64,000 bases of DNA from Paenibacillus sp. NAIST15-1 (GTDB lineage Bacteria > Bacillota > Bacilli > Paenibacillales > Paenibacillaceae): NCBI RefSeq assembly GCF_001894745.1, contig NZ_BBYF01000002.1:744001-808000 (forward strand), given 5' to 3'. Positions 28,963-45,599 of this stretch are shown one piece after another; position 1 is the stretch's first letter, and each line of letters starts with the position of its first letter. The notes beneath the pieces are model-generated. The model did no database searches, was not told the DNA's origin, and worked only from the letters and a program-made list of their open reading frames with translations. The translations under genes and the position numbers were made by a program.

Positions 28963-29148
28963 AGTGGGATGTCAACCAGAACATGCATAGTAGAAGTGTA
29001 AAGGTGAGAAAAGCTTATGCATAGGCCATATAGGCAGCATTCCATAAGGTTGTGAATGTGGGCTTTTCTTACGAGCAGGAATCTGCACATCTCAATAAAC
29101 GTGAGAAGGATGCAGACTGTCCTTACTCGTGAAAAAAGGAGCATACTT

Positions 29149-29850
29149 GTGTATACGATTCTTTCCAACGAACGCATCTCTGAAGGCATTTACCTCATGA
29201 CGGTGGAGGGTCAATTTCAAGCAAGCATGGGTCAATTCTTTATGCTGCGAGCCTGGAATACGGCACCTATTCTGTCTCGTCCAATTAGCATCTGCAATTT
29301 GGAGAAGGATAGCATCCAGTTCCTGTACAAGATTGCAGGAGAGGGTACGCGTTTAATTGCACAGCTGCGTGATGGAGACCGTATCCAGCTAGAAGGGCCA
29401 TTCGGCAATGGCTTCCCGCAAGTGGAGGGACGAACTGCACTTATCGGAGGCGGTATTGGCATTGCACCCTTATTATATACGGCGAAGCAGTTGGATAAAC
29501 CGGATATCTATCTTGGCTTTCGAGGGCAGTCCTATTTAACGGAAGCATACGAACCTTACGCGAATGAGTTGGTTGTCCGTGTAAACGGCAACCTCCTAGA
29601 TGACGTGGACTTAAGTAAATACGATAATGTGCTGGTGTGTGGTCCATTGGGAATGATGAAGGCAGTTGCCTTGCAAGCAGAAGGCTTGGATACGAAGGTG
29701 TATGTATCTTTTGAAAAACGTATGGCCTGCGGAATCGGGGCTTGTTATGTATGCTCAGTAAAGAATAAAAACGGCAACCGCAAAGTATGTGCGGATGGAC
29801 CTGTATTTTTGGCGGAGGAGGTGGAATGGCATGCGGAACTTAGCTTGTAA
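29149..29850 (+). CDS. pyrK: dihydroorotate dehydrogenase electron-transfer subunit
   Basis: A 233-residue PyrK protein. The FAD-binding region includes RPISICN and GEGTRLI; the NAD region has [11 protein letters not shown]. The C-terminal [2Fe-2S] cysteines lie in CGIGACYVC and a later CADGP. It carries electrons from PyrD to NAD+. GTG 29149 has AAAAGGAG six bases before it; the longer frame from 29056 lacks a site. It overlaps pyrD by 20 bases. No other pyr genes are nearby. Confidence 0.92.
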
Positions 29851-30766
29851 TGTAGCCGGCATTCCGTTCAACAATCCGATCGTGATGGCATCGGGAACGT
29901 TTGGCTTTGGGCAAGAATATGCCAAGTTATATGATATTAACAAGCTGGGGGGCATCTCCTGCAAAGGACTCACCCTACATCCACGTCTAGGGAATAACGG
30001 AACCCGGGTGTGGGAGACACCAGGCGGCATGATGAATAGTGTTGGGCTTGAGAATCCTGGTATCGATGCATTTTTGGAAGAGGAAATGGAATTCTGGGAA
30101 ACGATTGAGCCCGTGAAAATTGCCAATCTTGGCGGCAGTAATATAGAAGAATACGTCCTCGGGGCCTTGAAGATAACGAAGGATGCAGAAGAGCGGCGCA
30201 AAGCACGTGTTCGGGCTGTAGATATGATTGAGTTGAACATTTCATGCCCGAATGTGAAGGAAGGCGGTATTGCCTTTGGTGTGAAAACAGACGTTGCTCG
30301 TGAGGTCATTCGCGAAGTACGGCAAGTCACTTCACTGCCGCTTGCTGTGAAACTATCGCCGAATGCTGAGAATATTGTAGAAATGGCCGTAATGTGTGAA
30401 GACGAGGGAGCGGATTGTGTCTCTTTAGTAAATACGTTCTCGGGAATGAAGATTGATATTTATCAGCGGCGCAGTGTTTTTTCCAATACGTACGCGGGCT
30501 TGTCTGGGCCAGCTATTAAGCCAATTGCGCTGCGCATGGTTCATCAGGTGTCCCAGCATGTATCCATCCCCGTCATGGGCATGGGCGGCATCGCCTCCGC
30601 TTCGGATATTATTGAATTTATTATGGCCGGGGCTGAGGTGGTTCAAGTAGGCACATACAACTTCATGAACTTGCGTGCTGGCGAAGAGTTGCTTGCTGGT
30701 CTTCTAAGCTTCATGGAAATGGAGAACATTCAAAGTCTGGATGAGATTCGCGGCATTATTAAGTAA
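29831..30766 (+). CDS. pyrD: dihydroorotate dehydrogenase, class 1B catalytic subunit
   Basis: A 311-residue FMN enzyme that oxidises dihydroorotate to orotate in pyrimidine synthesis. It has [28 protein letters not shown] and the active-site cysteine region in IELNISCPN, then GLSGPAIKP and [10 protein letters not shown]. The N-terminal length and the adjacent PyrK mark it as the NAD+-linked 1B type. ATG 29831 follows GAGGTGG. Confidence 0.95.
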
Positions 30767-30813
30767 GGCCTTCTGGACAAATGTATTTCATTAAAGGGGG
30801 GGGCTCTGAATAC

Positions 30814-31161
30814 ATGCAGGAGCAACGACCGGGTGCAGACATAACCATTCAATATCGCAAAATTGGGCGAGACTACCTGTTCATCATTGCCGGGGGAGAC
30901 GAGCATATTGGGGCGGTATCTACCGCATATAGGGATCCGAGTACGGATGAGCACGAATGGGTTGTGCAGACGAATGGAGTTCCTGGGCATAAAGAATATG
31001 TACTGACAGAGCCAATGGCTAAGCAAGCGGCGAGTCAGCTTCAGGCTACGGTTACCGTATGTGCAGGGATACATTATGATAATCTAAGTTCGGCACATAT
31101 TGATGCAGTTGTTGATCATGCGTGGTCACAATTTTTGATTATGATGTCCACCCTTGATTAA
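30814..31161 (+). CDS. LpdD-like (prenylated-flavin chaperone-like) small protein
   Basis: A 115-residue protein. The pattern HIGAVSTAY, GVPGHKEYVL and VTVCAGIHYDNLS fits the LpdD-like family as I recall it, named after a gallate decarboxylase accessory protein. ATG 30814 follows a G-rich site. It is 48 bases after pyrD and ends at a terminator, so it is likely cotranscribed with pyrKD. What it does there is unknown. Confidence 0.6.
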   Translation: MQEQRPGADITIQYRKIGRDYLFIIAGGDEHIGAVSTAYRDPSTDEHEWVVQTNGVPGHKEYVLTEPMAKQAASQLQATVTVCAGIHYDNLSSAHIDAVVDHAWSQFLIMMSTLD

Positions 31162-31182
31162 ATCACAATGGTTAGAATACGG

Positions 31183-31220
31183 AGAAGAAGATTGGGCAAT
31201 CCTGATCTTCTTCTTTTTTT
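31183..31220 (+). terminator. terminator of pyrKD operon
   Basis: AGAAGAAGAT (31183-31192) pairs with ATCTTCTTCT (31205-31214), then a T run. Confidence 0.85.
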
Positions 31221-31345
31221 ATGGCTACCTACGAGTCATTATGTAAAGAAAGTATGAATGGAATGAAGATTTCTTTAAGCAGCGAGAGGAGTATACAATT
31301 TTCCACATTTCCGTATACAATAGAGATATGATTTTTTTGTTTTTT

Positions 31346-31371
31346 TGAAACAACTTCGGAACTGATTCGTA
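31346..31371 (+). promoter_or_regulatory. sigma-W-type ECF promoter
   Basis: TGAAAC (31346-31351), exactly 16 bases, then CGTA (31368-31371). This equals the B. subtilis sigma-W consensus and lies about 80 bases before pspA, itself a sigma-W target in B. subtilis. Confidence 0.8.
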
Positions 31372-31451
31372 TGAATGTGTAATGAAACATAATATTGAGC
31401 TGATGGGTATTTTGTTTCAATGGTTATGCACACAAAGGAGGAAACAATACA

Positions 31452-32129
31452 ATGTCCGTATTTAAACGTTTGCGTGATTTAACGATGTCTAATATTTATG
31501 CCTTGATCGAGAAGGCGGAAGATCCAATTAAGATGACAGATCAATACTTACGTGACATGCAAGAGGATTTGGAAGAAGCAGAACGTGCAGTAGCCCAGCA
31601 GATCGCGATCGAGAAGCGCTTCAAGCAGTCCTATGAAGAGCAAGAAGCACTTGTGAACAAGCGTGCTGAGCAAGCAGCAATTGCAGTACAGGCTGACAAT
31701 ATTGAATTGGCACGCCGCGCTCTGGAAGAGAAGAAGGCAGCAGAAGCGAAAATGAACGAGTACAAAGCGAGCTATGATCAGAACAAAGCTTCAGCAGACG
31801 CTCTTCGCGCGAAGCTGGAAGAAATGCGCAAGCAGTACACAGATATGAAGAACAAACGCGAAACGTTGGTCGCTCGTTTCAACGCTGCGAAGGCGCAAAC
31901 GGAAATCAACAAAGCAATGGCGGGATTCAGCTCCGATACTGCGATGTCAGGCTTGAAGCGTATGGAAGACAAAATGCTTCAAATGGAAGCTCAAGCAGAA
32001 GCAAGCAACGAAATCCGTGGAGCGGGAGGCAAGTCGCTCGATGATGAGTTCGCGAGCTTGACGAAGGATAAAGGTGTCGAGGATGAATTGGCAGCCCTGA
32101 TGAAGAAGTACGACAAATCTGCCGAATAA
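31452..32129 (+). CDS. pspA: PspA/IM30 (ESCRT-III-like) envelope-stress protein
   Basis: A 225-residue, nearly all-helical coiled-coil protein. It starts with SVFKRLRDLTMSNIYALIEKAEDP, the family's N-terminal membrane-binding helix, and continues with long Glu/Lys/Ala helices. It would polymerise on damaged membrane. It is the first gene of a four-gene operon behind a sigma-W promoter. Confidence 0.95.
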   Translation: MSVFKRLRDLTMSNIYALIEKAEDPIKMTDQYLRDMQEDLEEAERAVAQQIAIEKRFKQSYEEQEALVNKRAEQAAIAVQADNIELARRALEEKKAAEAKMNEYKASYDQNKASADALRAKLEEMRKQYTDMKNKRETLVARFNAAKAQTEINKAMAGFSSDTAMSGLKRMEDKMLQMEAQAEASNEIRGAGGKSLDDEFASLTKDKGVEDELAALMKKYDKSAE

Positions 32130-32309
32130 TCGGATACAGAAGACGCTTGTTATCTGTGTTACAAGCGTCTTTCTTTATTCTTGTACAGGTATATGGGCTC
32201 GTTAATGAAATAAAATGAAGAGAACACACTTTTACACGAGATTGCCGATTCTGGACAAACTGCTGTGTAAGCAGGCTTTCGTCCAAAGGGCAATGGGGGA
32301 GGATTCGAA

Positions 32310-32741
32310 TTGAGTTTCGGATTGGAAAACTGGTCAGTCCTGCTGGAGAATGTGCCGCGTATTGCGGTGTGGACAGCGATAGGAGCGGTGCTCTTATTCA
32401 TTCTCATGATTGTAGACTCCTTGTTTACAGGTTATAAGGATGTCCATGAAATGAGACAAGGCAATGTAGCGGTAACGACTCGCTTTATTATGAAGCTGTT
32501 CTCGCAAGGCTATATTTTATCTAGTTCTATTCGTGTTGCTTACAGCTTAGGCGAGGCATTGTTGATGTCTCTCTTCTCATTTGTCATATTGCTTATTCTA
32601 GAATTGCTAATCCGCTTGTTGTTCCGTACTGTATTCAACATGAACCTGGAAGAGGGGACGAAGCAAGGCAATATGTCGTATGCACTCGTGGCTGGTTCGC
32701 TGCATGTGGTTGGCGCGTTAATTATTGCAGCCTGCATATAA
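32310..32741 (+). CDS. DUF350 membrane protein
   Basis: A 143-residue protein with four predicted helices (about 16-38, 65-80, 83-105, 122-142). The pattern matches DUF350, a duplicated two-helix unit. TTG 32310 follows GGGGGAGG. DUF350 genes have been reported near pspA and DUF4178 in comparative studies of Psp systems. Confidence 0.75.
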   Translation: MSFGLENWSVLLENVPRIAVWTAIGAVLLFILMIVDSLFTGYKDVHEMRQGNVAVTTRFIMKLFSQGYILSSSIRVAYSLGEALLMSLFSFVILLILELLIRLLFRTVFNMNLEEGTKQGNMSYALVAGSLHVVGALIIAACI

Positions 32742-32772
32742 CAAGGGATTCAACAGGAAGGAGGCAGAACTA

Positions 32773-33279
32773 ATGAGCTTATGGAAACGCATTAAAAATA
32801 TTATGGCGAAGCCGGAAGCACCTCAACCAGAGAAAACGCCCTCTACGCTTGGCCCTGGGGATATTTGTGAAATCTCACTCGTCAGTTATGAAGTTATTGG
32901 CCGTACAGATTGGCGTACACGCAATTCTGCATGGCTGACACTGAGAGACGGATCACACATTAAATATTTATTCGTGGAGCAAAGAGAGCAGGCCTATTAT
33001 AGTCTGTACGATTCTATTGACGGACGTCTGGATGATGTAGAGGAAGTTCCTACAGAAATTGAACTGGATGGTAAGTGGTATTACATGGAAGACCAATATA
33101 ACGGCAGAGTCGTGTGTACAGGACAAACGCCATTTGGCGTATCTGGGGAGCAGTACGTGTGGCATTATCAAGCCGATGATCGTAAGCTGCTTCGCATTGA
33201 ATGGCAGGATGGACGATTCCAGTTGTATGAAGGAGATTCCGTCATATCCGCCGACGTACGTATTCTGCGCGGTTCTTAA
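32773..33279 (+). CDS. DUF4178 protein
   Basis: A 168-residue soluble protein. The core GDICEISLVSYEVIGRTDWRT, then WLTLRDGSHIKYLFVEQ and a late WHYQADDRKLLRIEWQDGR, fits DUF4178. ATG 32773 has GAAGGAGG ten bases upstream. No catalytic motif is evident. Confidence 0.75.
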   Translation: MSLWKRIKNIMAKPEAPQPEKTPSTLGPGDICEISLVSYEVIGRTDWRTRNSAWLTLRDGSHIKYLFVEQREQAYYSLYDSIDGRLDDVEEVPTEIELDGKWYYMEDQYNGRVVCTGQTPFGVSGEQYVWHYQADDRKLLRIEWQDGRFQLYEGDSVISADVRILRGS

Positions 33280-33288
33280 GAGGCGCCT

Positions 33289-34026
33289 ATGCGAAAATTC
33301 GGATTGGATTCAATCAAATGGCTTGTCATTTTCAGCTTACTGATTCCGTTGCTAACGGCTTGTGGACAGTATGATGTAGCGGAAACGTATCCGCTGGAGT
33401 CTGTTAGTCGTGATGGTAAGAGCACTTCCTATATTTATCGCGCTGAGAATACGACCGTGCCTGAAGTGGCCAAGGAGATTGCGGATAAACGCAAGCCGAA
33501 GCAGACTTCTGAACAGAGCGATGAGCGAATGTTTCTCGTCTATGATAATGAGCTCATTCAGGTGCAGCGCGACAAGGACAAACCAGAAGATTCGATTATT
33601 GAAGTGGCTTCACAGGAATACGTAAGGCAGAATTATGATCGAAGCTTCTTGGAGATGTACCTGCAATACAAGCTTCTCGATACACTGTTCGATTCATTAA
33701 GCGGGTATGGGAAGTACCGGGGTTATAATGAGCGTCGTACATACGAGCCGACGAAATCATACCAAAAGCCTACGGTGGAGGATAAGAAGAAGGCTCCTCC
33801 AATGACAGTGGATCGCAAGGGATCCATCTTCCGCAGAGGCTCCTCGACAGATACGTCGAAGAATACGGGGGGCGGGTTCTTCTCAAGGCAGCCGAAGGAT
33901 AATAGCAATCGCGGCTCCATATCACGAGGGGGGAGCGGGGGAAGTTATAATCCACCGAAAGTAAAAAAATCGAAACCGCCGAAGACTCGTTCCGGTTCGG
34001 GAAGTATATTCCGCCGAAAGCGATAG
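33289..34026 (+). CDS. DUF4247 lipoprotein
   Basis: A 245-residue lipoprotein with signal peptide and lipobox LTACG. The middle region (about 35-140) fits DUF4247. The C-terminal 90 residues are basic and rich in Gly/Ser/Arg/Lys (SRGGSGGSY, GSGSIFRRKR), likely disordered and able to bind anionic surface polymers. It ends the PspA operon. Confidence 0.75.
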   Translation: MRKFGLDSIKWLVIFSLLIPLLTACGQYDVAETYPLESVSRDGKSTSYIYRAENTTVPEVAKEIADKRKPKQTSEQSDERMFLVYDNELIQVQRDKDKPEDSIIEVASQEYVRQNYDRSFLEMYLQYKLLDTLFDSLSGYGKYRGYNERRTYEPTKSYQKPTVEDKKKAPPMTVDRKGSIFRRGSSTDTSKNTGGGFFSRQPKDNSNRGSISRGGSGGSYNPPKVKKSKPPKTRSGSGSIFRRKR

Positions 34027-34035
34027 CAGAAGGCA

Positions 34036-34077
34036 AATAAGAACCGCTCTTCTAGGATAGAAGAGCGGTTCTTATTT
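34036..34077. terminator. bidirectional terminator after the PspA operon
   Basis: A near-perfect 18-bp stem (AATAAGAACCGCTCTTCT with AGAAGAGCGGTTCTTATT) around AGGAT, with A- and T-rich flanks on both sides. Confidence 0.9.
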
Positions 34078-34159
34078 GATACTATTTCATTACAGTTGGT
34101 ACACAATGGATTTTCCATCCAATCCTCCTGATATTCTTCCAGGGGGAAATTAGAAGAGA

Positions 34160-35248
34160 TTACTCTTCCTCGTCCTGCCGCCGCTCAATAGCTTCAGACA
34201 TCGTCTTATCTGTCAGGTGTGCATAAATCTCCGTTGTCTCTGTCGAAGCGTGGCCTAGCTGTTCCTTTGTTTTGTAGATGTCATTTTGCAAATAATAATC
34301 TGTGGCGAATGAGTGCCGAAGCTTATGTACAGTTAGAGCAGGCTTGCCGTATCTCTTTGCATATTTAATAATCATCTGCTGAATAGCACGCTTCGTCATG
34401 CGGTTTCCTTCCTTCTCGCCATTCTTGATCGCGAGGAAGAAGGCTTTTTCCTTTTTAGGCGCTGCATACCGAGTTGATCTAGCCTCCAAGTATTCGGCCA
34501 AGTCCTGTCTTGCGCTGTCACGGTAATAAACTGGAGTCTTGAACGTCTCATCATTATGACCCTTGCGGTATACATAGACGAGCTTGTTGTTCATATCGAC
34601 ATCATCCATGTTGAGATTCACAACTTCGCTAACCCGCAACCCTGAATTCAGGATTAGGCTGACAATGGCAGCGTCCCGAACTGCATTCTGCGCATGCGCA
34701 TATGCAGCTTGTTTGTTATTGGCTACATCTTGGCCATAACCATCCCGCACATAATGAATGAACCCGTTAATCTCATTATCTTCAAGCAGCTTACCCTTCA
34801 GCTTAGAGGCGCTGTCTTTTGGTTTATGCACGCGTTTGATTTCGATCTTGGCCATTACATTGCGCTTCAATAACGGGTAGAAGTTCTCATCCTCCGCAAT
34901 TTGGCTCAAATAGTGGAATAAGGAGCGTAGCGATGACAGCTTGCGGGACACGGTCACACGAGCATTGGTTGTTTCTTTGTATGTCGTCAAATAAATGCGA
35001 AACGAAGTGATATGCTCCATGCGAAGCGATTCCAAATCTAATAAGGTAACATCCTTCTGATCATGCGCATCGGTTAATCGCTCGGACACGAGCCAGCCCA
35101 GAAATATTTCGTAGTCCCGCACATATTCCAACAAGGAGGATGGAGATAAATCGGGCATTTTATATTCAATAAATTGTTGCACGTACCAGGGCAGGGACGG
35201 CAGCTTGTGCTGAAGCACAGCACGGTCTCTCGTCTTCTGAATCGTCAT
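34160..35248 (-). CDS. xerS: tyrosine recombinase XerS
   Basis: A 362-residue recombinase with the length and N-terminal LPWYVQQF..Y pattern of XerS rather than XerC/D. Catalytic residues are in place: Arg205 (SGLRVSEV), Lys about 229, His308-x-x-Arg311 (HKLRHSF), His333 (LGHAS) and Tyr342 (EIYAH). In streptococci XerS alone resolves chromosome dimers. AAGGAGGT lies upstream of the ATG. Confidence 0.9.
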   Translation of the reverse strand: MTIQKTRDRAVLQHKLPSLPWYVQQFIEYKMPDLSPSSLLEYVRDYEIFLGWLVSERLTDAHDQKDVTLLDLESLRMEHITSFRIYLTTYKETTNARVTVSRKLSSLRSLFHYLSQIAEDENFYPLLKRNVMAKIEIKRVHKPKDSASKLKGKLLEDNEINGFIHYVRDGYGQDVANNKQAAYAHAQNAVRDAAIVSLILNSGLRVSEVVNLNMDDVDMNNKLVYVYRKGHNDETFKTPVYYRDSARQDLAEYLEARSTRYAAPKKEKAFFLAIKNGEKEGNRMTKRAIQQMIIKYAKRYGKPALTVHKLRHSFATDYYLQNDIYKTKEQLGHASTETTEIYAHLTDKTMSEAIERRQDEEE

Positions 35249-35394
35249 ATTGGGCAGAGACCTCCTTCCATACTCCTTCTATTGTAATGAACGAGTGATC
35301 CCGCGTAAAGAAGCCAATGGTCAAATAGTTGTTCAAACCAATGGGGAGAGATGCTACAATGGTTAAAGTTGTGCATACAAGGAGATAAGAAGAC

Positions 35395-36756
35395 ATGAAA
35401 CAGACTTACTCATTAAAGCAAAAATTGATTCAAATGCTACATATTTTATTGCCTATTTTCGTAACGCAAGTGGCAATGCAGCTGATGACATTCTTTGATA
35501 CGGTCATGTCAGGCAACTACCGAACTTCTGACTTGGCAGGTGTAGCGATCGCTACGAGTATTTGGGTGCCTGTATATACAGGGATAAGCGGGATATTTCT
35601 TGCGGTGACGCCAATTGTGGCGCAGCATATGGGAGCAGAACGCAAGCAGTTAATTGCTCCAAGTGTGACCCAGGCAGCATATTTAGCGGTTATCTTCGGA
35701 GCTGCTGTCATTGGGATCGGTATATTTGCGGTTGATCCGATTCTAACCTTTATGAAGCTGGATGCGGATGTTCACCGGGTGGCAAGAGAATATTTGACTG
35801 CAATCGGATTCGGAGTCATTCCATCCTTCCTTTATACCGTAATGCGCGCTAGCATTGATGGACTTGGCTTAACTCGGGTTACGATGATCATTACCCTGCT
35901 GTCCTTCCCAATTAACGTGCTGTTGAATTACTTGTTTATTTTCGGAAAAATGGGACTTCCTCAGTTCGGTGGGGCAGGGGCTGGAATAGCAACGGCAATT
36001 ACGTATTTCATTATTACATGCATCGCATTTGCATTTTTGCGTCGTAACGATCGCATGCGGGAAATGGGCATGTTTCGTTCTTGGAAGGGGATATCGCTTA
36101 CCCATTGGAAAGAGATTCTTCGCATCGGGATGCCGATCGGATTATCGATTTTCTTTGAAGTAAGTATTTTCTCCATGGTAACCATATTCATGAGTGAATA
36201 TGACACGGCAACAATTGCAGCACATCAATCGGCTCTCAATTTTGCTTCATTATTATACATGCTTCCGATGAGCATCGCGATGTCATTAACGATTCTCGTT
36301 GGATTCGAGGTAGGCGCTAAGCGATTCAAGGATGCGAAGACCTATGCGAGACTTGGTATATTTACAGCGGTGGGCTTATCCTCGCTCTGTGCGGTATTTC
36401 TGTTCTTGTTCCATAATGAAGTGGCAGGCATGTACACGAAGGAAGCGGGTGTGCGCGAGATTACATCGACGTTTCTAATGTACGCGATATTCTTCCAGCT
36501 GTCTGATGCAGTTGCGGCACCGGTGCAAGGAACGCTTCGCGGCTATAAAGATGTCAATGCCGTGTTCATGATCGCCTTCGCCTCGTATTGGATTATTGGT
36601 CTACCGTTAGGCTATGTACTGGCGAACTGGACGGATCTGCAAGCGTATGGCTATTGGATCGGACTGATTAGCGGTCTAGCAGCAGGCGCTGTTGCGCTGT
36701 TCACACGGCTTGCAATTGTAGAGCGGAGAGTACTGAAGGGTTTACAAAGAAACTGA
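35395..36756 (+). CDS. MATE-family efflux transporter
   Basis: A 453-residue, 12-helix multidrug and toxin extrusion protein. The MatE repeat pattern is visible in both halves: ILLPIFVTQVAMQLMTFFDTVMSG near the N-terminus and EILRIGMPIGLSIFFEVSIFS at the mid-point. GGAGATAAG precedes ATG 35395. The substrate is unknown. Confidence 0.92.
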   Translation: MKQTYSLKQKLIQMLHILLPIFVTQVAMQLMTFFDTVMSGNYRTSDLAGVAIATSIWVPVYTGISGIFLAVTPIVAQHMGAERKQLIAPSVTQAAYLAVIFGAAVIGIGIFAVDPILTFMKLDADVHRVAREYLTAIGFGVIPSFLYTVMRASIDGLGLTRVTMIITLLSFPINVLLNYLFIFGKMGLPQFGGAGAGIATAITYFIITCIAFAFLRRNDRMREMGMFRSWKGISLTHWKEILRIGMPIGLSIFFEVSIFSMVTIFMSEYDTATIAAHQSALNFASLLYMLPMSIAMSLTILVGFEVGAKRFKDAKTYARLGIFTAVGLSSLCAVFLFLFHNEVAGMYTKEAGVREITSTFLMYAIFFQLSDAVAAPVQGTLRGYKDVNAVFMIAFASYWIIGLPLGYVLANWTDLQAYGYWIGLISGLAAGAVALFTRLAIVERRVLKGLQRN

Positions 36757-36784
36757 TTAAATTGATTTAATAGTGCAGCAATGA

Positions 36785-36817
36785 AAACAAGAGGGCATCA
36801 GCTCTCTTGTTTTTTAT
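36785..36817 (+). terminator. terminator of the MATE gene
   Basis: ACAAGAG pairs with CTCTTGT around a short loop and is followed by TTTTTT. Confidence 0.85.
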
Positions 36818-36875
36818 ACCGTTTTTATTTGTAATCCATTGATCTAAGGGGTAGTTCTTTATACGTCTGTTCAAT

Positions 36876-36903
36876 ACGTTAAACAATATTTATTATGTAA
36901 ACT
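36876..36903 (+). other. dif-like 28-mer (weak)
   Basis: Bases 36893-36903 equal the XerD half (TTATGTAAACT) of the B. subtilis dif site as I recall it. Over 28 positions 22 match, while the XerC-side half is divergent. It lies 1.6 kb from xerS. It may be chance in an AT-rich gap. Confidence 0.25.
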
Positions 36904-36959
36904 TACTGAAGGGAATAATCCATGTACCTTATGAATCCAGTAAATAGGGGGATAAGAGA

Positions 36960-38405
36960 ATGAAAGTAGTTAGAGCAGTATGGGCTGTAACCATCGTACT
37001 CTTCATACTAATTAGTTCATTCACTCCAATATCGAGAAGCTATGCGATAGGGAAAGAAAGCGAACTTATCAGAGCCCGAGTAAATGCGGTAATCGACCTT
37101 GAGACCATTGAAGTGGATCAGGGTAAAAAAATTAAGTTGTATGGCGTAAATAGTAAATACTATCAAAAGTACGTAACATCTTTTAAAGAAGAGATTCTGT
37201 TTCCGACAGAGACAGGGGTCATCGCAGGATTTTCGAAGGCGTATTTCAAAGGCGAATCGGTCGAACATTTGGTACATAGAGCGCTCCAATTTTATAAGGA
37301 ATTATTGATTGGAAGAAGTGTGTATCTTAAGGAAGTTCGGACAAGTCAATCTTATATTGTTTACCTTGATCATGACAAGAAGCACAGCTTAAATCAAATT
37401 GCAGTAACGTCAGGCTATGTTACTGTTTCGAATGACAATCAGGAGCTTCCTGACTTATTGATTCAACAAGAAGAAGCTAGAAATGCTAAAACGGGATTAT
37501 GGAATATTACTGTATTTATCAAAGATGCGGGTGGGTGGAGTGAAAATAACTTCGTATATGTTGCTCTTACATTAGTAATACTGAATTTTGTAGTGAGTAT
37601 GTTCATCTTTGTTTTATATACAAAAAATAGGTCTCTATTAGGAACCATTGCTGTTTATGCGGGGTTTATCACGACTGCGGTAGCTACAATAGGCATATAT
37701 AGTTATAACGAGAGGCAATTGTTTTTCTGGGTACCACCGATGATTATTGTCATCTTTGCATTGATTGGCATAGGAGAATTTGTCTATTTTATATATTCAA
37801 AAAAAGCAAAAAGCTTGCTGTTCGTCACCGCAGAAATCGTTCTCTATATTATGCTTGTTATTGCAGGGTTCGGAATTCTATATCAGGGATATTCAAATAA
37901 TATAAGAACGCAAACTGAAATCTCTTATGCACTCCCCAATTTCAATTATGAATCAGGCATACGTACTGAAGAGCCTACGGGTAATTATATCTCGATACCG
38001 GAAAATGAATATAAACGTACTGAACATGGTGAGGTGGATTTCAAATCCATAGAACGAGTGAAATATAATCTTAGTTTTCTGAATGCGATTTATTTTAGTG
38101 CGACTACTTTTTTTACAGTTGGTTACGGAGATTTTTCACCGAAGGGTTTCCTGAAAATTATAAGTGTGATTCAAATGATTATCGGCTATCTGTCTCAAGT
38201 TATTTTGTTTAGTTTGCTTTTATCTAAAATCGCTTCATTTGGATCAAAAGTAGAAACACTTGCGAGTGAAGATACGATCCATTCATTTCCGAGCCGAAAA
38301 AGCAAACATCAACCCAAGCGACTATTCAACAAATATATCGTCATTGGATTATACATCTTTTATTTGATTGAAAATCTATGGTTATTGTACAAATTAGGCA
38401 AATAA
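36960..38405 (+). CDS. membrane protein joining a degenerate SNase-like domain to a K+-channel pore
   Basis: A 481-residue protein. A signal anchor (1-28) is followed by an extracellular domain (about 37-182) with the staphylococcal-nuclease pattern: RVNAVIDLETIEV, KLYGVNSK, LIGRSVYLKEV, LNQIAVTSGYV and AKTGLW. The nuclease residues are changed: D21 to E48, R35 to K59, D40 to N64, E43 to Y67 and R87 lost. The rest is membrane: helices at about 199-219, 226-247, 256-278 and 287-308. A final two-helix pore carries the selectivity filter TVGYGD (386-391) and ends at about 460. It looks like a ligand-gated or anchored K+ channel. The pairing is my reading from sequence. Confidence 0.75.
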   Translation: MKVVRAVWAVTIVLFILISSFTPISRSYAIGKESELIRARVNAVIDLETIEVDQGKKIKLYGVNSKYYQKYVTSFKEEILFPTETGVIAGFSKAYFKGESVEHLVHRALQFYKELLIGRSVYLKEVRTSQSYIVYLDHDKKHSLNQIAVTSGYVTVSNDNQELPDLLIQQEEARNAKTGLWNITVFIKDAGGWSENNFVYVALTLVILNFVVSMFIFVLYTKNRSLLGTIAVYAGFITTAVATIGIYSYNERQLFFWVPPMIIVIFALIGIGEFVYFIYSKKAKSLLFVTAEIVLYIMLVIAGFGILYQGYSNNIRTQTEISYALPNFNYESGIRTEEPTGNYISIPENEYKRTEHGEVDFKSIERVKYNLSFLNAIYFSATTFFTVGYGDFSPKGFLKIISVIQMIIGYLSQVILFSLLLSKIASFGSKVETLASEDTIHSFPSRKSKHQPKRLFNKYIVIGLYIFYLIENLWLLYKLGK

Positions 38406-38419
38406 CTGTGTGTAATTTT

Positions 38420-38458
38420 GATGTTAGTTATTTCAAAAGAGATGGAAACTAACACATC
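38420..38458 (+). terminator. possible terminator after the channel gene
   Basis: ATGTTAGTT pairs with AACTAACACAT with a two-base bulge; no T-run follows. Confidence 0.35.
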
Positions 38459-38804
38459 TATTATATCCACTCAATAAGCAATAGATTTATGAAGTAATGT
38501 TCAATATTTGTATACTTTTTTAGTTTAATGTGATAGGCTAGAAACGAATATGTAAGAGGAGGTATCTATTTAAGGACATGTGGACTAACTAATTGGACTC
38601 GTTATGGAATTGGATAACAACGATCCTGTGCTCTGCCACAATGGTGGAATGGTTAGAAAACACGTGTGCCTATTTACAGATACTCCTTATCGTAATAGTT
38701 CGGACAGAGGAAGCAGTGCAGGCTGAATTAGCTTGCTCCTGTTTTGTTTTGCCGCGACTTGTACCTATGCGTAAGCTACAGAATGCTTATGGAGGGTATG
38801 CTAT

Positions 38805-38840
38805 TTGTTTACGTTAGGGTTTCTTTATCGCACAATCTAA
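38805..38840 (+). CDS. 11-residue leader peptide of the ABC-F gene
   Basis: TTG start at 38805, eight bases after GGAGGG (38791-38796), encoding MFTLGFLYRTI and stopping at TAA 38838-38840, five bases before the attenuator stem. The spacing and position fit a ribosome-stalling leader that senses antibiotic. Another small frame (ATGCGTAAG at 38769 to TAG 38817, 16 codons) overlaps upstream and is a second candidate. Confidence 0.5.
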   Translation: MFTLGFLYRTI

Positions 38841-38845
38841 TCGTG

Positions 38846-38875
38846 ACTCATCGGCAGAGGCCGGTGAGTTTTTTT
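38846..38875 (+). terminator. attenuator terminator before the ABC-F gene
   Basis: ACTCATCGGC (38846-38855) pairs with GCCGGTGAGT (38860-38869) around AGAG, followed by seven T. It lies 37 bases before the ABC-F start codon and would stop transcription unless antiterminated. Confidence 0.8.
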
Positions 38876-38911
38876 GTTGCGCTTAGTTGCGCGGATAAAG
38901 GAGGTAAACGT

Positions 38912-40669
38912 ATGACGTTGTTGTTAAGCTGCAGAAATTTAGCGAAAGCCTTTGGAGATTTACAGGTGCTACGAAATGTTCAGCTCGATATTGCCAAGGG
39001 GGATCGCATTGGACTGGTCGGATGCAATGGTGCAGGCAAAACGACACTCGCCCAGTTACTATATGGAACAGTAAAGCCGGACACAGGTGTGATCACTTGT
39101 TTCGGAGATTCGATTGATATTGGATATTTAAAGCAATCGACTTCGTATTCAGTTCAAATGTTCAGTGAGATGTCGGAGTGCATGCTGGAGAAGGATGGGG
39201 CTTCCTCATTCATGACTGCAACAAGCATGATGGGCGTAAGACAGGTGCAGTCGTGGGAAATGGAGAGAGCTCGTCATCTGAGCGGAGGGGAGCGCACAAA
39301 GTTGGCGCTAGCTCATATCTGGTCAACTCGCCCTCATTTATTACTTTTAGATGAGCCTACGAACCATCTTGACTTGGATGGTGTGGAATGGTTGATTCGA
39401 GAACTGAATTCATACGATGGTTCGATGCTTGTCATCTCGCATGATCGATATTTTCTTGATCGGACGGTTCAGCGCACTATTGAGCTAGAGGATGGGGTTG
39501 CTCATGAATACATGGGGAACTACAGCGCGTATCGGGATGAAAAAGCTCGAAGATATCAGAATCAGCTGCATCAATATGAGACGGAGCAAAAGTATAAGGC
39601 AAAAATAGAAGTTGAAATCCACCGCTTGGAACAGTGGTCTTCCAAGGCGCATCGAGAAGCAGGCAAAGTTGGCAAGATGGTAGAGATGCGTACTGGGATC
39701 AAGGAGTTCTATCGTACCAAGGCCAAGAAAATGGATCGACAGGTGAAATCGAGGATAAAAAGGCTTCGTCGAATCGAATGTGAAGGAATTCAGAAGCCGC
39801 GAAAGGAGCAGCAGATTTATTTTGAATTTGATCATCCCGACAAACGGGGGAGACGAATGTTGGAAGCCAATCGGATTCATAAATCTGCAGGGAATAAGCT
39901 GCTGTTCCAGGATAGTTCATTTACCGTTCAGCGTGGAGATAGAATCGGACTTCTAGGGCCAAATGGGTGCGGGAAATCAACACTTATCCGGATGTTAATA
40001 GGGCAGCTTCAACCTGATCGTGGAGAGATCTGGCTAAGTCCAAGCATCAAGCCCGCCTACTTATCTCAGGAGCTGGACGATCTGGATGCGGAGCAATGCG
40101 CATTGGAATGGTACGGGTACGACTCTGATAGTCTTGCCGAAGTACGCACGGTACTCGCTCAGATGGGGATTGAAGCAGAAATGTTGATGAAGCCGATGAA
40201 GCAGCTGAGCCTAGGAGAACGGATGCGTCTCAAAATCGCGAACTTGATCGTCAATCGTTCAGACGTTCTTGTTTTGGACGAACCAACGAACCATTTGGAT
40301 TTACAGAGCAGGACGCAACTGGAGGAAACGTTAACCTCGTATTCTGGAACGATGCTGATCGCTTCCCATGATCGGTATTTTCTTGAACGAGTATGTCAAA
40401 AATGGCTGGTTTTTCATGACGGCAAAGTGACACTGTCACAACGCTCATTAAGTCAGGCAGTGCAAGTTGGCGATGATGGACAAGGTTCGGATCAGATGGC
40501 CTCCTCAGATGAGGTGTATGATCGGTTAATGGTAGAACATAAGTTATCCCACATTTTAGCCGAGCTATCACTGTGTAAACCAGGAGATAAGAAGTATACG
40601 GTACTAGATGAGGAATACCAGTTGTGGCTCCACAGAAAGAAGCATTTGGATCAATCTAGGCATAAATAG
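38912..40669 (+). CDS. ABC-F ribosome-protection protein (Vga/Msr/VmlR-like)
   Basis: A 585-residue protein with two ABC domains and no membrane part. First ATPase: GCNGAGKTT, LSGGERTK and LLLLDEPTNHLDLD. Second: GPNGCGKST, LSLGERMR and VLVLDEPTNHLDLQ. Between them is a Lys/Arg-rich helical linker (about 215-300) that in family members reaches the peptidyl-transferase centre. ATG 38912 follows AAAGGAGG. The leader peptide plus terminator upstream point to antibiotic-induced expression. Which drug is unknown, though lincosamide, streptogramin A and pleuromutilin are typical for relatives. Confidence 0.88.
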   Translation: MTLLLSCRNLAKAFGDLQVLRNVQLDIAKGDRIGLVGCNGAGKTTLAQLLYGTVKPDTGVITCFGDSIDIGYLKQSTSYSVQMFSEMSECMLEKDGASSFMTATSMMGVRQVQSWEMERARHLSGGERTKLALAHIWSTRPHLLLLDEPTNHLDLDGVEWLIRELNSYDGSMLVISHDRYFLDRTVQRTIELEDGVAHEYMGNYSAYRDEKARRYQNQLHQYETEQKYKAKIEVEIHRLEQWSSKAHREAGKVGKMVEMRTGIKEFYRTKAKKMDRQVKSRIKRLRRIECEGIQKPRKEQQIYFEFDHPDKRGRRMLEANRIHKSAGNKLLFQDSSFTVQRGDRIGLLGPNGCGKSTLIRMLIGQLQPDRGEIWLSPSIKPAYLSQELDDLDAEQCALEWYGYDSDSLAEVRTVLAQMGIEAEMLMKPMKQLSLGERMRLKIANLIVNRSDVLVLDEPTNHLDLQSRTQLEETLTSYSGTMLIASHDRYFLERVCQKWLVFHDGKVTLSQRSLSQAVQVGDDGQGSDQMASSDEVYDRLMVEHKLSHILAELSLCKPGDKKYTVLDEEYQLWLHRKKHLDQSRHK

Positions 40670-40699
40670 CTGAATGTAACGAATCATAGGAGTACATAC

Positions 40700-41368
40700 G
40701 TGCATGAGAGGGTGTCCAACAATATGAGAATGAAAAAGCATGTACTCCTGCCAATATATATGGCTATTCTGATGTTCATGTCGGGTTTCCAAAGCGGAAG
40801 TATTGTGCGATTGAATATGCCTGAAAATGAATTAGACTCTGTGGTGCACGCCTTACAAAAAGGCGGATATATTTTGTATATGAGGCATGGCGAAGCTACG
40901 GTTGGGCAGGATCGACCGACCGTGGATTTTCATGATTGCTCGACGCAGCGCAATCTGAGTGATACCGGAAGAGAGCAGGCTAAAATGCTTGGGGAGTCTA
41001 TGCGCAAACTCAATATTCCTGTTCAATATCCCGTTGTTGCGAGTCCATATTGCCGAACCCGAGAATCGGCAGAACTTGCCTTTGGTTCAGGCAATGTGGC
41101 TGTCGATCCTTCTTTGGCGGCTATCGCTAAGCTTAGCGATAGCACAATTTCAGCTGCAGAGAAACAAAGCATTGTGACGCAGGTAGAGAAAATGTTCGAG
41201 GTAGTACCCCTGTCTGGAACGAACAAAGTAATTATCGGTCACGCTTTTCCTGCCGGTGTTGCTGTCGGTGAGATCCCTTATATGGGGACTGTTGTGATTA
41301 AGCCCAAAGGGCCGGGGAATGGGTATGAGATTGTCCAAAAAATCAGTCTTCAAGATTTCATGAGATAG
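40700..41368 (+). CDS. exported histidine-phosphatase-family protein
   Basis: A 222-residue protein with an N-terminal hydrophobic segment (about 12-32) and the histidine phosphatase core: catalytic YMRHGEA (RHG motif), later SPYCRTRESAELAFG and VIIGHAFP with the second histidine. GTG 40700 has TAGGAG seven bases upstream; ATG 40724 is an alternative. The substrate is unknown. It follows the ABC-F gene by 30 bases. Confidence 0.82.
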   Translation: MHERVSNNMRMKKHVLLPIYMAILMFMSGFQSGSIVRLNMPENELDSVVHALQKGGYILYMRHGEATVGQDRPTVDFHDCSTQRNLSDTGREQAKMLGESMRKLNIPVQYPVVASPYCRTRESAELAFGSGNVAVDPSLAAIAKLSDSTISAAEKQSIVTQVEKMFEVVPLSGTNKVIIGHAFPAGVAVGEIPYMGTVVIKPKGPGNGYEIVQKISLQDFMR

Positions 41369-41396
41369 GATTCCGAACAAGCAAAAGTTCCTTCAT

Positions 41397-41431
41397 TTCG
41401 GAGGAAGGCGATCCGCCCTCCGTTTTACAGC
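41397..41431 (+). terminator. terminator after the histidine phosphatase
   Basis: CGGAG...GGC pairs with GCC...CTCCG, followed by TTTT. Confidence 0.65.
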
Positions 41432-41450
41432 ATTACAGGATGATTGTAGA

Positions 41451-41526
41451 ACGACACAAACATTGGTTCAAAACATCTTTACTAAATGGGTGGAAATCCA
41501 AGGTCAAGGACTAATGTTTGTGTCGT
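41451..41526. repeat. 76-bp element with 14-bp perfect inverted ends
   Basis: ACGACACAAACATT (41451-41464) is the exact inverse of AATGTTTGTGTCGT (41513-41526), with 48 bases between. There is no T-run on either side, so it is not an obvious terminator. It may be a miniature element or an RNA cruciform. It lies in the 343-base gap before rbsR. Confidence 0.5.
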
Positions 41527-41641
41527 AGATTTTCAACTACAAACACTCCTCAGATTCTACTTGATCAGAACCGCAGCCTGCCATGACCACTAAAAAGATG
41601 CTGCCAGCCATCCTACCTAGATAATGGAACAGCCATAAACC

Positions 41642-41689
41642 TTGTCAAAGGTAAATGATTGTGTTATTTTATATGTGTAACCGGTTTCA
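41642..41689 (+). promoter_or_regulatory. rbs promoter with perfect cre box
   Basis: TTGTCA (41642-41647), 17-base spacer, TATTTT (41665-41670). Immediately downstream, TGTAACCGGTTTCA (41676-41689) matches the CcpA consensus TGWAANCGNTNWCA at every fixed position and is the expected RbsR/CcpA target, so glucose should repress and ribose induce. Confidence 0.8.
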
Positions 41690-41711
41690 TGTTTAGAGGT
41701 GACTAACAACG

Positions 41712-42701
41712 ATGGCAACGATTAGAGACGTAGCGAAACATGCGGGCGTATCCGCAGCAACCGTATCGCGGGTAATCAACGATACTGGATATGTGCATGA
41801 TGATACCCGTAGGAAGATTGAAAGCGCAATCAAAGAACTTCACTATACGCCGAATGAAGTAGCTAGATCCTTATACAAGCGAAAATCCAGACTGATCGGT
41901 TTCCTACTCCCTGATATCACCAACCCTTTTTTTCCTGAGTTGGCGCGTGGGGTGGAGGATAAGATGCAGGAGAATGATTTTCGAATCATTTTTGGCAATA
42001 GCGATGAAAATATACAAAAAGAAAAAGAATATATCCAGACCTTCGTACAAAATAATGTGGTTGGCGTGATTGCATCCACGAATCATCCGGATGCAGATAT
42101 TTATCGGAAGCTGAAGATTCCAGTAGTATTTCTCGACCGTACGGTGGACAATCGCCCATCGGTATATGCGGACGGACATGAAGGTGGAAAAATAGCTGCC
42201 CATGAAATGATTGCCCGCGGCAGTCAGCGGATTACGGTCATGCAGGGGCCGGCTTCCATTCGGCCGGCACAGGATCGTTATCAGGGCGCAATTGATGTGT
42301 TGAACAGTCATGGGATGGATTACAACGTAATCCGGACTACATCGTTTTCGTTCACGGAAGCAGGAAAATGGGCGAAGGAATTGTTCGAGCGTTATCCGGA
42401 CACGGATGGCATCATTGCCAGCAACGACATTGTTGCTACGGCGGTGCTTCATGAAGCGCTTAGGCTTGGCAAGAATGTACCGGATGACGTGCAAATCATC
42501 GGCTTTGACGATATTCCGCTCAGCAGTCTCTTAACACCAGCACTGACGACGATCAGGCAGCCCGCTTATGATATGGGCAGAGCCTCGGCAGACCTTTTAA
42601 TACAATTATTAGAGAATGAAAATGTAGATCAGAAAATCATACAAATGCCCGTGACATTTACAGAGCGGGAAACAATGAGGAAGGTGGGGCAACATGGCTA
42701 A
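41712..42701 (+). CDS. rbsR: ribose operon repressor (LacI family)
   Basis: A 329-residue LacI/GalR regulator. N-terminal helix-turn-helix ATIRDVAKHAGVSAATVSRV, hinge helix and a periplasmic-binding-protein-like effector domain (about 60-329). It is the first gene of the ribose operon, in the same order as B. subtilis rbsRKDACB, and overlaps rbsK by eight bases. Confidence 0.93.
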   Translation: MATIRDVAKHAGVSAATVSRVINDTGYVHDDTRRKIESAIKELHYTPNEVARSLYKRKSRLIGFLLPDITNPFFPELARGVEDKMQENDFRIIFGNSDENIQKEKEYIQTFVQNNVVGVIASTNHPDADIYRKLKIPVVFLDRTVDNRPSVYADGHEGGKIAAHEMIARGSQRITVMQGPASIRPAQDRYQGAIDVLNSHGMDYNVIRTTSFSFTEAGKWAKELFERYPDTDGIIASNDIVATAVLHEALRLGKNVPDDVQIIGFDDIPLSSLLTPALTTIRQPAYDMGRASADLLIQLLENENVDQKIIQMPVTFTERETMRKVGQHG

Positions 42702-43572
42702 AATTATTGTAGTAGGAAGCTCATCAATTGATTTGGTCGTTACATCATCCAAACGCCCGGGGGCCGGTGAAACGGTTCTCGGGGAAAGCTTCAAAACCGT
42801 TCCTGGAGGCAAAGGAGCGAACCAGGCCGTTGCCGCAGCGCGGCTCGGAGCCGACGTAACCATGATCGGGCGCGTAGGAGACGATGCATTCGCAGCGCAA
42901 ATTTTGAACAACTTTAAGCAAAACAACGTTTGTGTCGACAATGTGGAACCGGTTCCACACATGGAAAGTGGAACAGCGCATATCATTTTGGCAGAAGGTG
43001 ATAACAGTATTGTTGTTGTGAAAGCAGCCAATAATGAAGTTACCCCGGAATATATCGACCATACGAGGGAAGCTTTTGAAGGAGCGGATATGGTGATGAT
43101 CCAGCAGGAGATTCCGGTGGAAACCGTTACTCATGTCAGCCGGATCTGCAAGAACCTTGGGATTCCGCTGCTGCTCAACCCAGCGCCAGCACGTCCACTT
43201 GATGATGAGGTAATCGAAAATGCCGCTTATATTACACCAAATGAGCATGAAGCGAAAATCCTGTTTTCATCTCTAACCGTTTCCGAGGCGCTGCGCAAAT
43301 ATCCGAACAAACTGTTTATTACCGAAGGCAGCAACGGAGTACGTTATTTCGACGGCTCTAATGAAGTACTCGTACCATCTTACAAAGTGCCCGTGGTGGA
43401 TACGACAGGCGCAGGGGATACCTTTAACGCCGCTTTTGCGGTCGCACTGGCTGAAGGAACAGCGATTTACGATAGCGTCCGTTTTGCCAACCGTGCAGCT
43501 TCCTTGTCTGTAACGAAGTTTGGTGCGCAGGGCGGCATGCCATATCGTCAAGAAGTGGAGGCGCAGATGTAA
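42694..43572 (+). CDS. rbsK: ribokinase
   Basis: A 292-residue PfkB-family kinase that phosphorylates ribose at O5. It has the N-terminal GGKGANQAVAAARLG motif and the C-terminal catalytic signature DTTGAGDTFNAAF. Confidence 0.95.
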   Translation: MAKIIVVGSSSIDLVVTSSKRPGAGETVLGESFKTVPGGKGANQAVAAARLGADVTMIGRVGDDAFAAQILNNFKQNNVCVDNVEPVPHMESGTAHIILAEGDNSIVVVKAANNEVTPEYIDHTREAFEGADMVMIQQEIPVETVTHVSRICKNLGIPLLLNPAPARPLDDEVIENAAYITPNEHEAKILFSSLTVSEALRKYPNKLFITEGSNGVRYFDGSNEVLVPSYKVPVVDTTGAGDTFNAAFAVALAEGTAIYDSVRFANRAASLSVTKFGAQGGMPYRQEVEAQM

Positions 43573-43573
43573 C

Positions 43574-43972
43574 ATGAAAAAACAAGGCATCTTGAACAGT
43601 CATATTTCGAAAATTTTGGCCGATTTGGGCCATACAGATACAATCGTCGTCGCCGACGTCGGTCTTCCCATCCCGGAAGGGGTCAAGAAAATTGATTTGG
43701 CGCTAACGTTAGGTACACCAAGCTTTGAGGAAACGGTCAATGCCATTGCAGCCGATATGGAAATCGAAAAAGTGGTGATTGCGAAAGAAATCAAAGCGCA
43801 AAATCATGAAGCAAATGCTTACATCCAGCATAAATTCGGAGATTGTGAAATCGAGGATTGTCCTCATGAAGAATTCAAGGAACTGACTCGCAAGGCCAAA
43901 GCTGTGATTCGCACGGGCGAGGCTAAACCGTTCGCCAATATCATTTTACAAGCAGGTGTCTATTTCGGTTAG
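43574..43972 (+). CDS. rbsD: D-ribose pyranase
   Basis: A 132-residue RbsD that interconverts ribopyranose and ribofuranose for rbsK. It has MKKQGILNSHISKILADLGHTD and the C-terminal KPFANIILQAGV. It starts one base after the rbsK stop. Confidence 0.95.
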   Translation: MKKQGILNSHISKILADLGHTDTIVVADVGLPIPEGVKKIDLALTLGTPSFEETVNAIAADMEIEKVVIAKEIKAQNHEANAYIQHKFGDCEIEDCPHEEFKELTRKAKAVIRTGEAKPFANIILQAGVYFG

Positions 43973-43977
43973 CAAGT

Positions 43978-44100
43978 GCTTACGAAGTAAGTTTTGCTGC
44001 AAAGAACATCCAGAGAAGCAACGTTCGCAAAACTAAGCGTAAGCTTCCGAAGTAGTTTTGCTGCGAAGAACAATCAAAGGAGCCATGCTCCGCAAAACTT
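43978..44100 (+). repeat. two tandem hairpin repeats between rbsD and rbsA
   Basis: Two related units of about 60 bases (43978-44034 and 44043-44100) each begin GCTT.CGAAGTA.GTTTTGCTGC and each fold: AGTTTTGC pairs with GCAAAACT (43990-43997 with 44027-44034; 44054-44061 with 44092-44099). The sequences are diverged but clearly the same unit. They may set the ratio of early to late rbs messages by protecting RNA ends. Confidence 0.75.
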
Positions 44101-44116
44101 GTAAGGAGGAGCCATT

Positions 44117-45598
44117 ATGCAGATTCAAATGAAAGGAATCCACAAAGCCTTCGGCAGCAACCAGGTACTATCCGGCGTTGATTTTGACCTGCGCGAAGGC
44201 GAGGTTCACGCCCTCATGGGCGAAAACGGTGCGGGCAAGTCCACCCTAATGAACATTCTGACGGGCCTGCATGCAAGAGATAAAGGAACCATCCTGATCG
44301 ACGGCAAGGAAACGTATTTTGCCAATCCGAAAGAAGCGGAGCGGCAAGGTATCGCTTTTATCCATCAGGAGCTAAATATATGGCCTGACATGACCGTGGT
44401 GGACAACCTGTTCATCGGGAAGGAGATGTCCTCGACTTGGGGACTTCTAAAATCCAAGGAAATGAAGGCGCTTGCAATTGAGCAATTCAAAAGACTCTCC
44501 GTTGATATACCGTTGAATATAGAAGCAGGACAATGCTCGGTAGGACAGCAGCAGATGATTGAAATCGCCAAGGCACTGTTGACGGACACCAAGGTCATAA
44601 TCATGGACGAACCAACCTCTGCGCTGACGGAAAGAGAAATTCAGAAACTATTTGAAGTCATTCAGTCCTTGAAAAAAGAAGGAGTATCGATTGTTTACAT
44701 TTCACACCGGATGGAGGAGATCTTCGAAATTTGCGACCGGATCACAGTTATGCGTGACGGCCGGACGGTAGACACCAAGCCAATTCCAGAAACCAATTTC
44801 GATGAAGTTGTAAAGAAAATGGTCGGCAGGGAGCTGACCGAACGCTACCCTGCTCGCAACCCTTCACCAGGTGAGGTTGTCCTGGAGGTAGAGCATGCAA
44901 CTCGCAAAGGATCGTTTGAAGATGTAAGCTTCAGCGTTCATCAAGGTGAAATCGTTGGTTTCTCCGGCCTGATGGGTTCTGGACGCACCGAAATCATGAG
45001 AGCACTGTTCGGATTGGATCGGCTGGATCAAGGCGAGGTCCGTATGTTCGGCAAGAAGGTCGAGATCAGAAAGCCGGTCGACGCAGTTAATCATGGAATC
45101 GGTTTCATTACGGAAGACCGCAAAGACGAAGGCTTGGTACTGGACTTTTCCGTTCGGGATAACATGGTTCTTCCAAGTATCAGCGGTTTTACAAAGAAAG
45201 GAATCATCTCGACGCAAAGTGAGAAGGTGTTCGTGGATGCCTTAATTAAGCGGCTGCAGATCAAAACACATTCAGCGGAAACCGCAGCTGGAAATTTGTC
45301 CGGCGGTAATCAGCAGAAGGTGGTTATTGCCAAGTGGATAGGCATCGGTCCGAAGCTGTTAATCCTCGACGAACCGACACGGGGCGTAGACGTTGGCGCT
45401 AAGCGCGAAATCTACCAGTTAATGAACGAACTGACAGGCCATGGCGTTGCCATCATTATGGTATCTTCCGAATTGCCTGAAGTGCTCGGCATGAGCGACC
45501 GCATCGTTGTTGTTCACGAAGGGCGAATCACTGGAGAATTAACAAAAGCAGAAGCGACACAGGAAAAAATAATGACGCTGGCGACAGGGGGACAGTAA
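44117..45598 (+). CDS. rbsA: ribose ABC transporter ATP-binding protein
   Basis: A 493-residue double-ATPase. First half: [26 protein letters not shown]. Second half: [30 protein letters not shown]. This matches RbsA/MglA. GTAAGGAGG precedes the ATG. Confidence 0.96.
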
Positions 45599-45599
45599 T

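Follow-up and report, generated by a model that had tools for sequence, protein, structure and literature searches.

A Paenibacillus protein joining a putatively non-catalytic nuclease-like domain to a K+-channel pore

A Gene for an SNase-Like Domain and a K+-Channel Pore

We analyzed a 64,000-nucleotide stretch of the Paenibacillus sp. NAIST15-1 genome (contig NZ_BBYF01000002.1, positions 744,001 to 808,000; hereafter the window) and focused on one gene whose product joins a staphylococcal nuclease (SNase)-like domain to a K+-channel pore (Table 1). The gene stands alone between those of a MATE-family transporter (35395–36756, by Pfam) and an ABC-F-like ATPase (38744–40669, recognized by eye). 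A first-pass annotation made from the sequence alone had described the product as an exported, catalytically dead nuclease fold, followed by several transmembrane (TM) helices and ending in a two-helix pore. The pore assignment held: Pfam Ion_trans_2 (PF07885) matched residues 369–423 with 50.2 bits against a cut-off of 22.5, and the selectivity filter TVGYGD lies between two TM helices predicted by hydropathy and is invariant in all four full-length members of the family, that is, the window protein and the three homologs described below.

Table 1. Features of the gene, its predicted product and the surrounding variable slot, in window coordinates
Feature	Position	Strand	Basis and remarks
Coding sequence, SNase-like domain and K+-channel pore	36960–38405	+	481 amino acids, ATG start; open reading frame coordinates exact
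Ribosome-binding-like AGGGGG	36946–36951	+	By eye
Signal peptide, residues 1–29, ending SYA, hydrophobic helix 3–21	36960–37046	+	Hydropathy; cleavage site by eye
SNase-like OB-fold domain, residues 35–186, predicted extracellular, active site apparently lost	37062–37517	+	Pfam, NCBIfam (below cut-off), hhalign, model and structure comparison, residue alignment
Three TM helices (TM1–TM3), about residues 201–219, 226–244, 254–272	37542–37805	+	Hydropathy; model helices 194–223, 226–249, 258–279
M1, outer pore helix, residues 283–312 (hydropathy 286–304)	37806–37895	+	Hydropathy, model
Long M1-to-pore (M1–P) loop, residues 313–368, predicted extracellular	37896–38063	+	Alignment, hydropathy
Pore helix and selectivity filter; TVGYGD at residues 386–391 (38115–38132)	38064–38147	+	Open reading frame translation, Pfam, alignment
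M2, inner helix, residues 397–426 (hydropathy 403–421)	38148–38237	+	Hydropathy, model
Basic tail (predicted cytoplasmic) and C-terminal hydrophobic helix 459–477	38238–38402	+	Hydropathy
Variable slot	36816–38483		DNA similarity to the closest congener (G002) ends at 36815 and restarts at 38484

Hydropathy analysis found the same order of seven hydrophobic segments in all four members. The first of these, the N-terminal segment, is present throughout, in agreement with the proposed export. So is the C-terminal hydrophobic helix, and here the earlier description needs correction, as the chain continues beyond the two-helix pore: M2 is followed by a tail of about 55 residues, consisting of a basic part and the hydrophobic helix. 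In the window protein, M1 and M2 are separated by a 98-residue stretch holding the M1–P loop and the pore. Three TM helices precede M1, and as M1 enters from the inside in the canonical K+-channel orientation, the SNase-like domain is predicted to lie outside the cell. The signal peptide agrees with this placement, as does the charge pattern: in the tail and in both short loops, the one following TM1 and the one following TM3, Lys and Arg outnumber Asp and Glu, as expected on the cytoplasmic side.

Fold and Active Site of the N-Terminal Domain

The Pfam match to SNase (PF00565) is marginal, 22.0 bits against a cut-off of 21 over residues 101–182. Since this match alone is marginal and begins after the first strands, we added further tests of the fold. 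In a search of its own genome the window protein scored 25.0 bits; the copy in genome G277 reached 26.8 bits, and that in G257 was absent among the matches listed. At E ≤ 1, SNase and Ion_trans_2 both matched all four members, and apart from these two the window protein has no Pfam match above cut-off. The NCBIfam nuclease model EcnA aligned residues 35–183 to model positions 3–150 of 151, scoring 19.7 bits, far under its equivalog cut-off of 180. When the domain was compared with SNase by profile–profile alignment (hhalign), the score exceeded those of all 100 shuffles, and the two share a C-terminal G-[LIV]-W motif. We then compared structures using a template-free model of the domain built from three family sequences. 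All 50 VIA-align matches listed were SNase or Tudor-SN chains, the SN-like domains of Tudor-SN/SND1 being the top structural matches.

Four results either count against this assignment or are uninformative. The domain profile found no SNase among PDB sequences. With the full-length model, Foldseek gave 66 matches at E ≤ 10 and none at E ≤ 0.001, with no SNase among the best 50 of the 66, and the top 11 VIA-align matches were helical proteins, SNase and Tudor-type matches over about residues 33–182 appearing from rank 12 on. With the model of the domain, the best Foldseek E-value was 7.4e-3. As the shuffle-controlled profile–profile comparison, the template-free model and the structure comparison agree, we rejected a spurious SNase match. 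The SNase pattern noted in the first pass thus stands, the fold comparisons returning SNase and Tudor-SN instead of a lack of SNase or OB-fold similarity.

To assess catalysis, we aligned the four members with 30 canonical SNases, using the Staphylococcus aureus nuclease numbering for D19, D21, T22, R35, D40, T41, E43 and R87; residues are given in the order window protein, L003, L004, L016. D21, found in 30/30 canonical sequences, is E/E/V/E, and R35 (also 30/30) is K/K/P/K. R87, likewise present in all 30, falls in a gap in all four members, which lack the loop carrying it and have a shortened loop after strand 5. An insertion after strand 3 leaves it uncertain where the DTPE segment belongs. 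In the first placement D40 (30/30) becomes P/Q/E/D, T41 (28/30) T/T/L/I and E43 (30/30) T/T/E/E, which would retain D40 and E43 in L016 and E43 in L004, a caveat to a lost active site. If DTPE is instead placed by eye directly after LYG, D40 becomes N/S/S/N, T41 S/I/N/V and E43 an invariant Y, the window protein reading N/S/Y. Under either placement D21, R35, D40, E43 and R87 all differ in the window protein, as the first-pass annotation had claimed for the five key residues; D19 and T22 of the DGDT motif (each 30/30) are retained in all four. Judging from the alignment, the catalytic residues of the window protein are lost. With the R87 loop deleted and an insertion after strand 3, binding of nucleotides in the SNase manner also appears unlikely.

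Distribution and Conservation of the Fusion

The fused channel was found only in its own genome in a genus sample of 19 (0 of the 18 others). In the family sample of 394 genomes, 14 matched at E ≤ 0.001, three of them over the full length (its own genome, G277 and G257) and the other 11 only within query residues 366–470; the order sample of 296 genomes gave ten matches, three full-length (its own, G257 and G481) and seven in the pore region. Scanning a set with a single genome for each of 84,980 species, from which the source genome may be absent, with a sequence pattern returned 13 loci. Two of these were full-length, in Paenibacillus pinihumi and P. whitsoniae, and were taken as G277 and G481 again, not as additional members; the other 11 matched within query residues 341–442. 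A profile of the four members matched 157 of 398 genomes in the class sample and, among the matches listed, all but that in its own genome fell within model positions 357–483.

Between them, the members span four genus labels (g1, g9, g10, g42) and two family labels (f1, f6). Aligned with the window protein, the homologs are 53, 47 and 37% identical to it (54, 48 and 38% in the family and order searches). All four retain the fusion. We rejected chance or an assembly artifact as its source, given that the window gene has an open frame and that the fusion persists in three full-length homologs with other genus labels. A profile of the domain alone matched four of 266 genomes of the order, three through the fused protein and one (G408) within an RNase Z-like protein, so labeled by eye, which we rejected as a chance match and not a separate-gene relative. 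Among 299 genomes of the phylum it matched only its own genome. The survey of the domain pair therefore agrees with the proposed link: no stand-alone relative appeared in either sample, and this variant of the SNase fold seems, in the samples searched, to occur only fused to this channel. There was no relative in plasmid, phage or viral collections and no match in an anti-phage defense library. Since a few distant relatives share the pairing, the fusion is probably a genuine, though rare, type of channel.

Mean pairwise identities over the six pairs were 78% for the pore and filter, 57% for M2 and 50% for M1, 48% for the SNase-like domain, 36% for both TM1–TM3 and the M1–P loop, and 24% for the tail. 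By this measure the SNase-like domain is the most tightly held large region outside the pore module.

Among the other weak SNase matches of the searches, six loci (L091–L096) were read, none of them a channel by eye. Pfam analysis of three gave the architectures Cu_amine_oxidN1, SNase and RCC1; SNase and RCC1; and SNase with a sub-cut-off LTD match. L091 (1049–2869, minus strand) and L093 (1058–2611, minus strand) and, by eye, L092 and L094 combine partly degenerate-looking SNase domains with RCC1 repeats. These proteins come from other genomes with the same family label and put the SNase fold to another use; L091 and L093 were checked, and one of them also has a copper amine oxidase N-terminal domain. 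In L095 (1765–2670, plus strand) and, by eye, L096, an SNase-like domain is joined at its C-terminal side to a lamin-tail-like region (LTD at 33.4 bits in L095, cut-off 34.3); the L095 product is lipoprotein-like, with a lipobox recognized by eye.

Comparison with Known Channels and Nuclease-Fold Proteins

The M1–P–M2 module and the TVGYGD filter are those of two-TM/P-loop K+ channels (PF07885), and we compared the protein with the known classes of these. There was no TrkA_N/RCK or cNMP-binding Pfam match at E ≤ 1, such as RCK or cyclic-nucleotide-gated channels would give, and no solute-binding or glutamate-receptor match at the same threshold, such as the GluR0 type would give. In the window protein, Arg and Lys are absent from the three TM segments predicted to precede M1, whereas a voltage-gated channel would have an S4 helix with repeated Arg or Lys. 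The chain has a single Ion_trans_2 stretch and a single filter, unlike the K2P class with its two pore domains. At E ≤ 0.001 the window protein is the only PF07885 match, and the only PF00565 match, in its genome, and thus it is probably the sole PF07885-family channel of its organism.

The nearest relatives of the pore met in our searches are eight uncharacterized Clostridium-type multi-TM proteins (L020–L022, L024–L028) in open frames of 242–323 codons, which share the core TFFTVGYGD with the family. Unlike the window protein, these frames have no SNase-like part recognizable by eye. In a profile comparison, homology with them was demonstrable from M1 to M2 only (P = 3.5e-16); the region preceding the pore, taken alone, gave none (P = 0.18). 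As the simplest origin, we infer that an exported SNase-like domain became fused to a Clostridium-type channel.

The domain resembles the SNase family (PF00565) in its predicted fold, in D19 and T22 of DGDT and in the G-[LIV]-W motif, and differs from it, in the window protein, by the apparent loss of catalytic residues, the missing R87 loop, the insertion after strand 3 and the fusion to a channel. Tudor-SN/SND1 proteins are eukaryotic and not known as parts of channels. They are alike in carrying SNase-like folds within a multidomain protein and, according to the excerpted source, in having binding roles (PMC13179928).

Well-described bacterial K+ channels are controlled mostly from the inside or by voltage. 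One bacterial K+ channel with an extracellular ligand was met in the excerpted literature: GluR0, which combines a K+-type filter with an extracellular glutamate-binding domain (PMC2950845) and whose membrane orientation is reported as opposite to that of KcsA (PMC13099474). The likeness to our protein lies in the filter and the extracellular sensor domain; the difference lies in GluR0's split glutamate-binding domain and inverted orientation, as against an N-terminal SNase-like head and a predicted canonical orientation. A review of engineered proteins in which small K+ pores are joined to sensor domains shows that such modules can be coupled (PMC12332018). The excerpts of these three articles mention no SNase-like head, and searches of the open-licence PMC literature aimed at such a fusion, at externally gated bacterial K+ channels and at SNase-like domains gave no fusion of SNase and channel among the papers listed, as judged by titles and abstract beginnings. 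This is in keeping with the earlier remark that no described channel gated by an SNase-like domain was known to its author.

Possible Function

We consider control from outside the cell the most likely role of the fusion, because its single large soluble domain is predicted to be extracellular; this outer domain is the most likely control input, because no RCK, cyclic-nucleotide or charged voltage-sensor part was recognized. We put the probability that a non-catalytic SNase-like head controls a K+ channel from the exterior at roughly 0.5. The protein would be a K+-channel subunit, probably tetrameric, in which the extracellular OB-fold acts as a regulatory head and binds a ligand of the wall space, candidates being a peptide, a wall polymer, an ion or a nucleic acid. 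The conformational change could be relayed to the pore via TM1–TM3 and M1, or via the long M1–P loop, and would alter K+ flux and the membrane potential. The analysis shows the sequence, the fold (by prediction and profile), the loss of active-site residues and the conservation of the fusion; we infer tetramer assembly, conduction, gating, ligand and topology. More tentatively, the family may represent a new class of ligand-gated bacterial K+ channel, in which an exapted dead nuclease fold on the cell exterior binds a ligand, from the wall space or from other cells, and opens or closes a pore of canonical orientation. If so, it would be a second design besides GluR0, a compact channel with an outer pseudo-enzyme head, linking wall-space signals to the membrane potential and offering a simple system for studying the control of a K+ pore by a domain on the outside.

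The main rival to extracellular control, which we hold to be rather unlikely, is that the head is passive and serves folding, export, tetramer assembly, wall anchoring or capping of the pore, the channel being constitutive or set by the membrane. OB-folds without catalysis can act as scaffolds, the long M1–P loop is likewise predicted to be extracellular, and no ligand pocket was identified in the domain. The higher identity of the domain than of TM1–TM3 and the M1–P loop suggests specific contacts, although assembly contacts would produce the same pattern. The first-pass annotation had suggested that the domain may sense nucleic acid, nucleotides or wall fragments outside the cell and open the pore, and the version in which DNA, nucleotides or RNA do so seems improbable. 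The SNase ancestry of the domain speaks for it, and according to the excerpted source the SN domains of SND1 can bind RNA directly (PMC13179928). Against it stand the deleted R87 loop, which makes DNA or nucleotide sensing a weak option, the shortened loop after strand 5 and the replacements at R35, together with a Pfam scan of ten neighboring proteins, which revealed no nuclease and no DNA-uptake protein. Charge was discarded as a guide to nucleic-acid sensing, the values for the four domains (0, −9, −3 and −10) lying within the −11 to 5 of the 30 canonical SNases. Nothing in our data favors DNA over other ligands or over a structural role. A weak or altered nuclease or phosphodiesterase activity beside the pore is very improbable: D19 and T22 persist, three of the four members have a glutamate at the D21 position and one placement may leave L016 with D40 and E43, but R35 and R87, each universal in the canonical set, are replaced or missing throughout the family. 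Extracellular control by a non-catalytic head thus remains our preferred reading.

Genomic Setting

The gene occupies a variable slot (Table 1). In the genus-sample genome with the highest DNA similarity, G002, matches of 87–89% extend up to 36760, a final 31-base match reaches 36815, and similarity of about 89% resumes at 38484; in G002 the slot, between the MATE and ABC-F-like genes, holds a small, unrelated tyrosinase-like open reading frame (L117, 895–1536, minus strand; 22.1 bits, cut-off 22.6). The G+C content of 1-kb windows over the channel gene is 0.33–0.40, in comparison with 0.425–0.491 elsewhere in 30000–46000. Together, the patchy distribution, the variable slot and the AT-richer composition suggest that the gene was gained by horizontal transfer, although loss elsewhere is also possible. 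A relative of the MATE gene is present in all 19 genomes of the genus sample. Comparison of about 17–21 kb around each of the four genes revealed no neighbor gene common to the four loci; outside the gene, the six pairs yielded 24 fragments in all, of 9–44 codons each and none of gene length.

Upstream of the channel gene, at 31452–34026, lies a cluster of PspA/IM30, DUF350, DUF4178 and DUF4247 genes (by Pfam). Farther away, the open reading frames for the Fe-S (29056–29850) and catalytic (29789–30766) subunits of dihydroorotate dehydrogenase overlap in different frames, and the true start of the catalytic subunit may lie further downstream.
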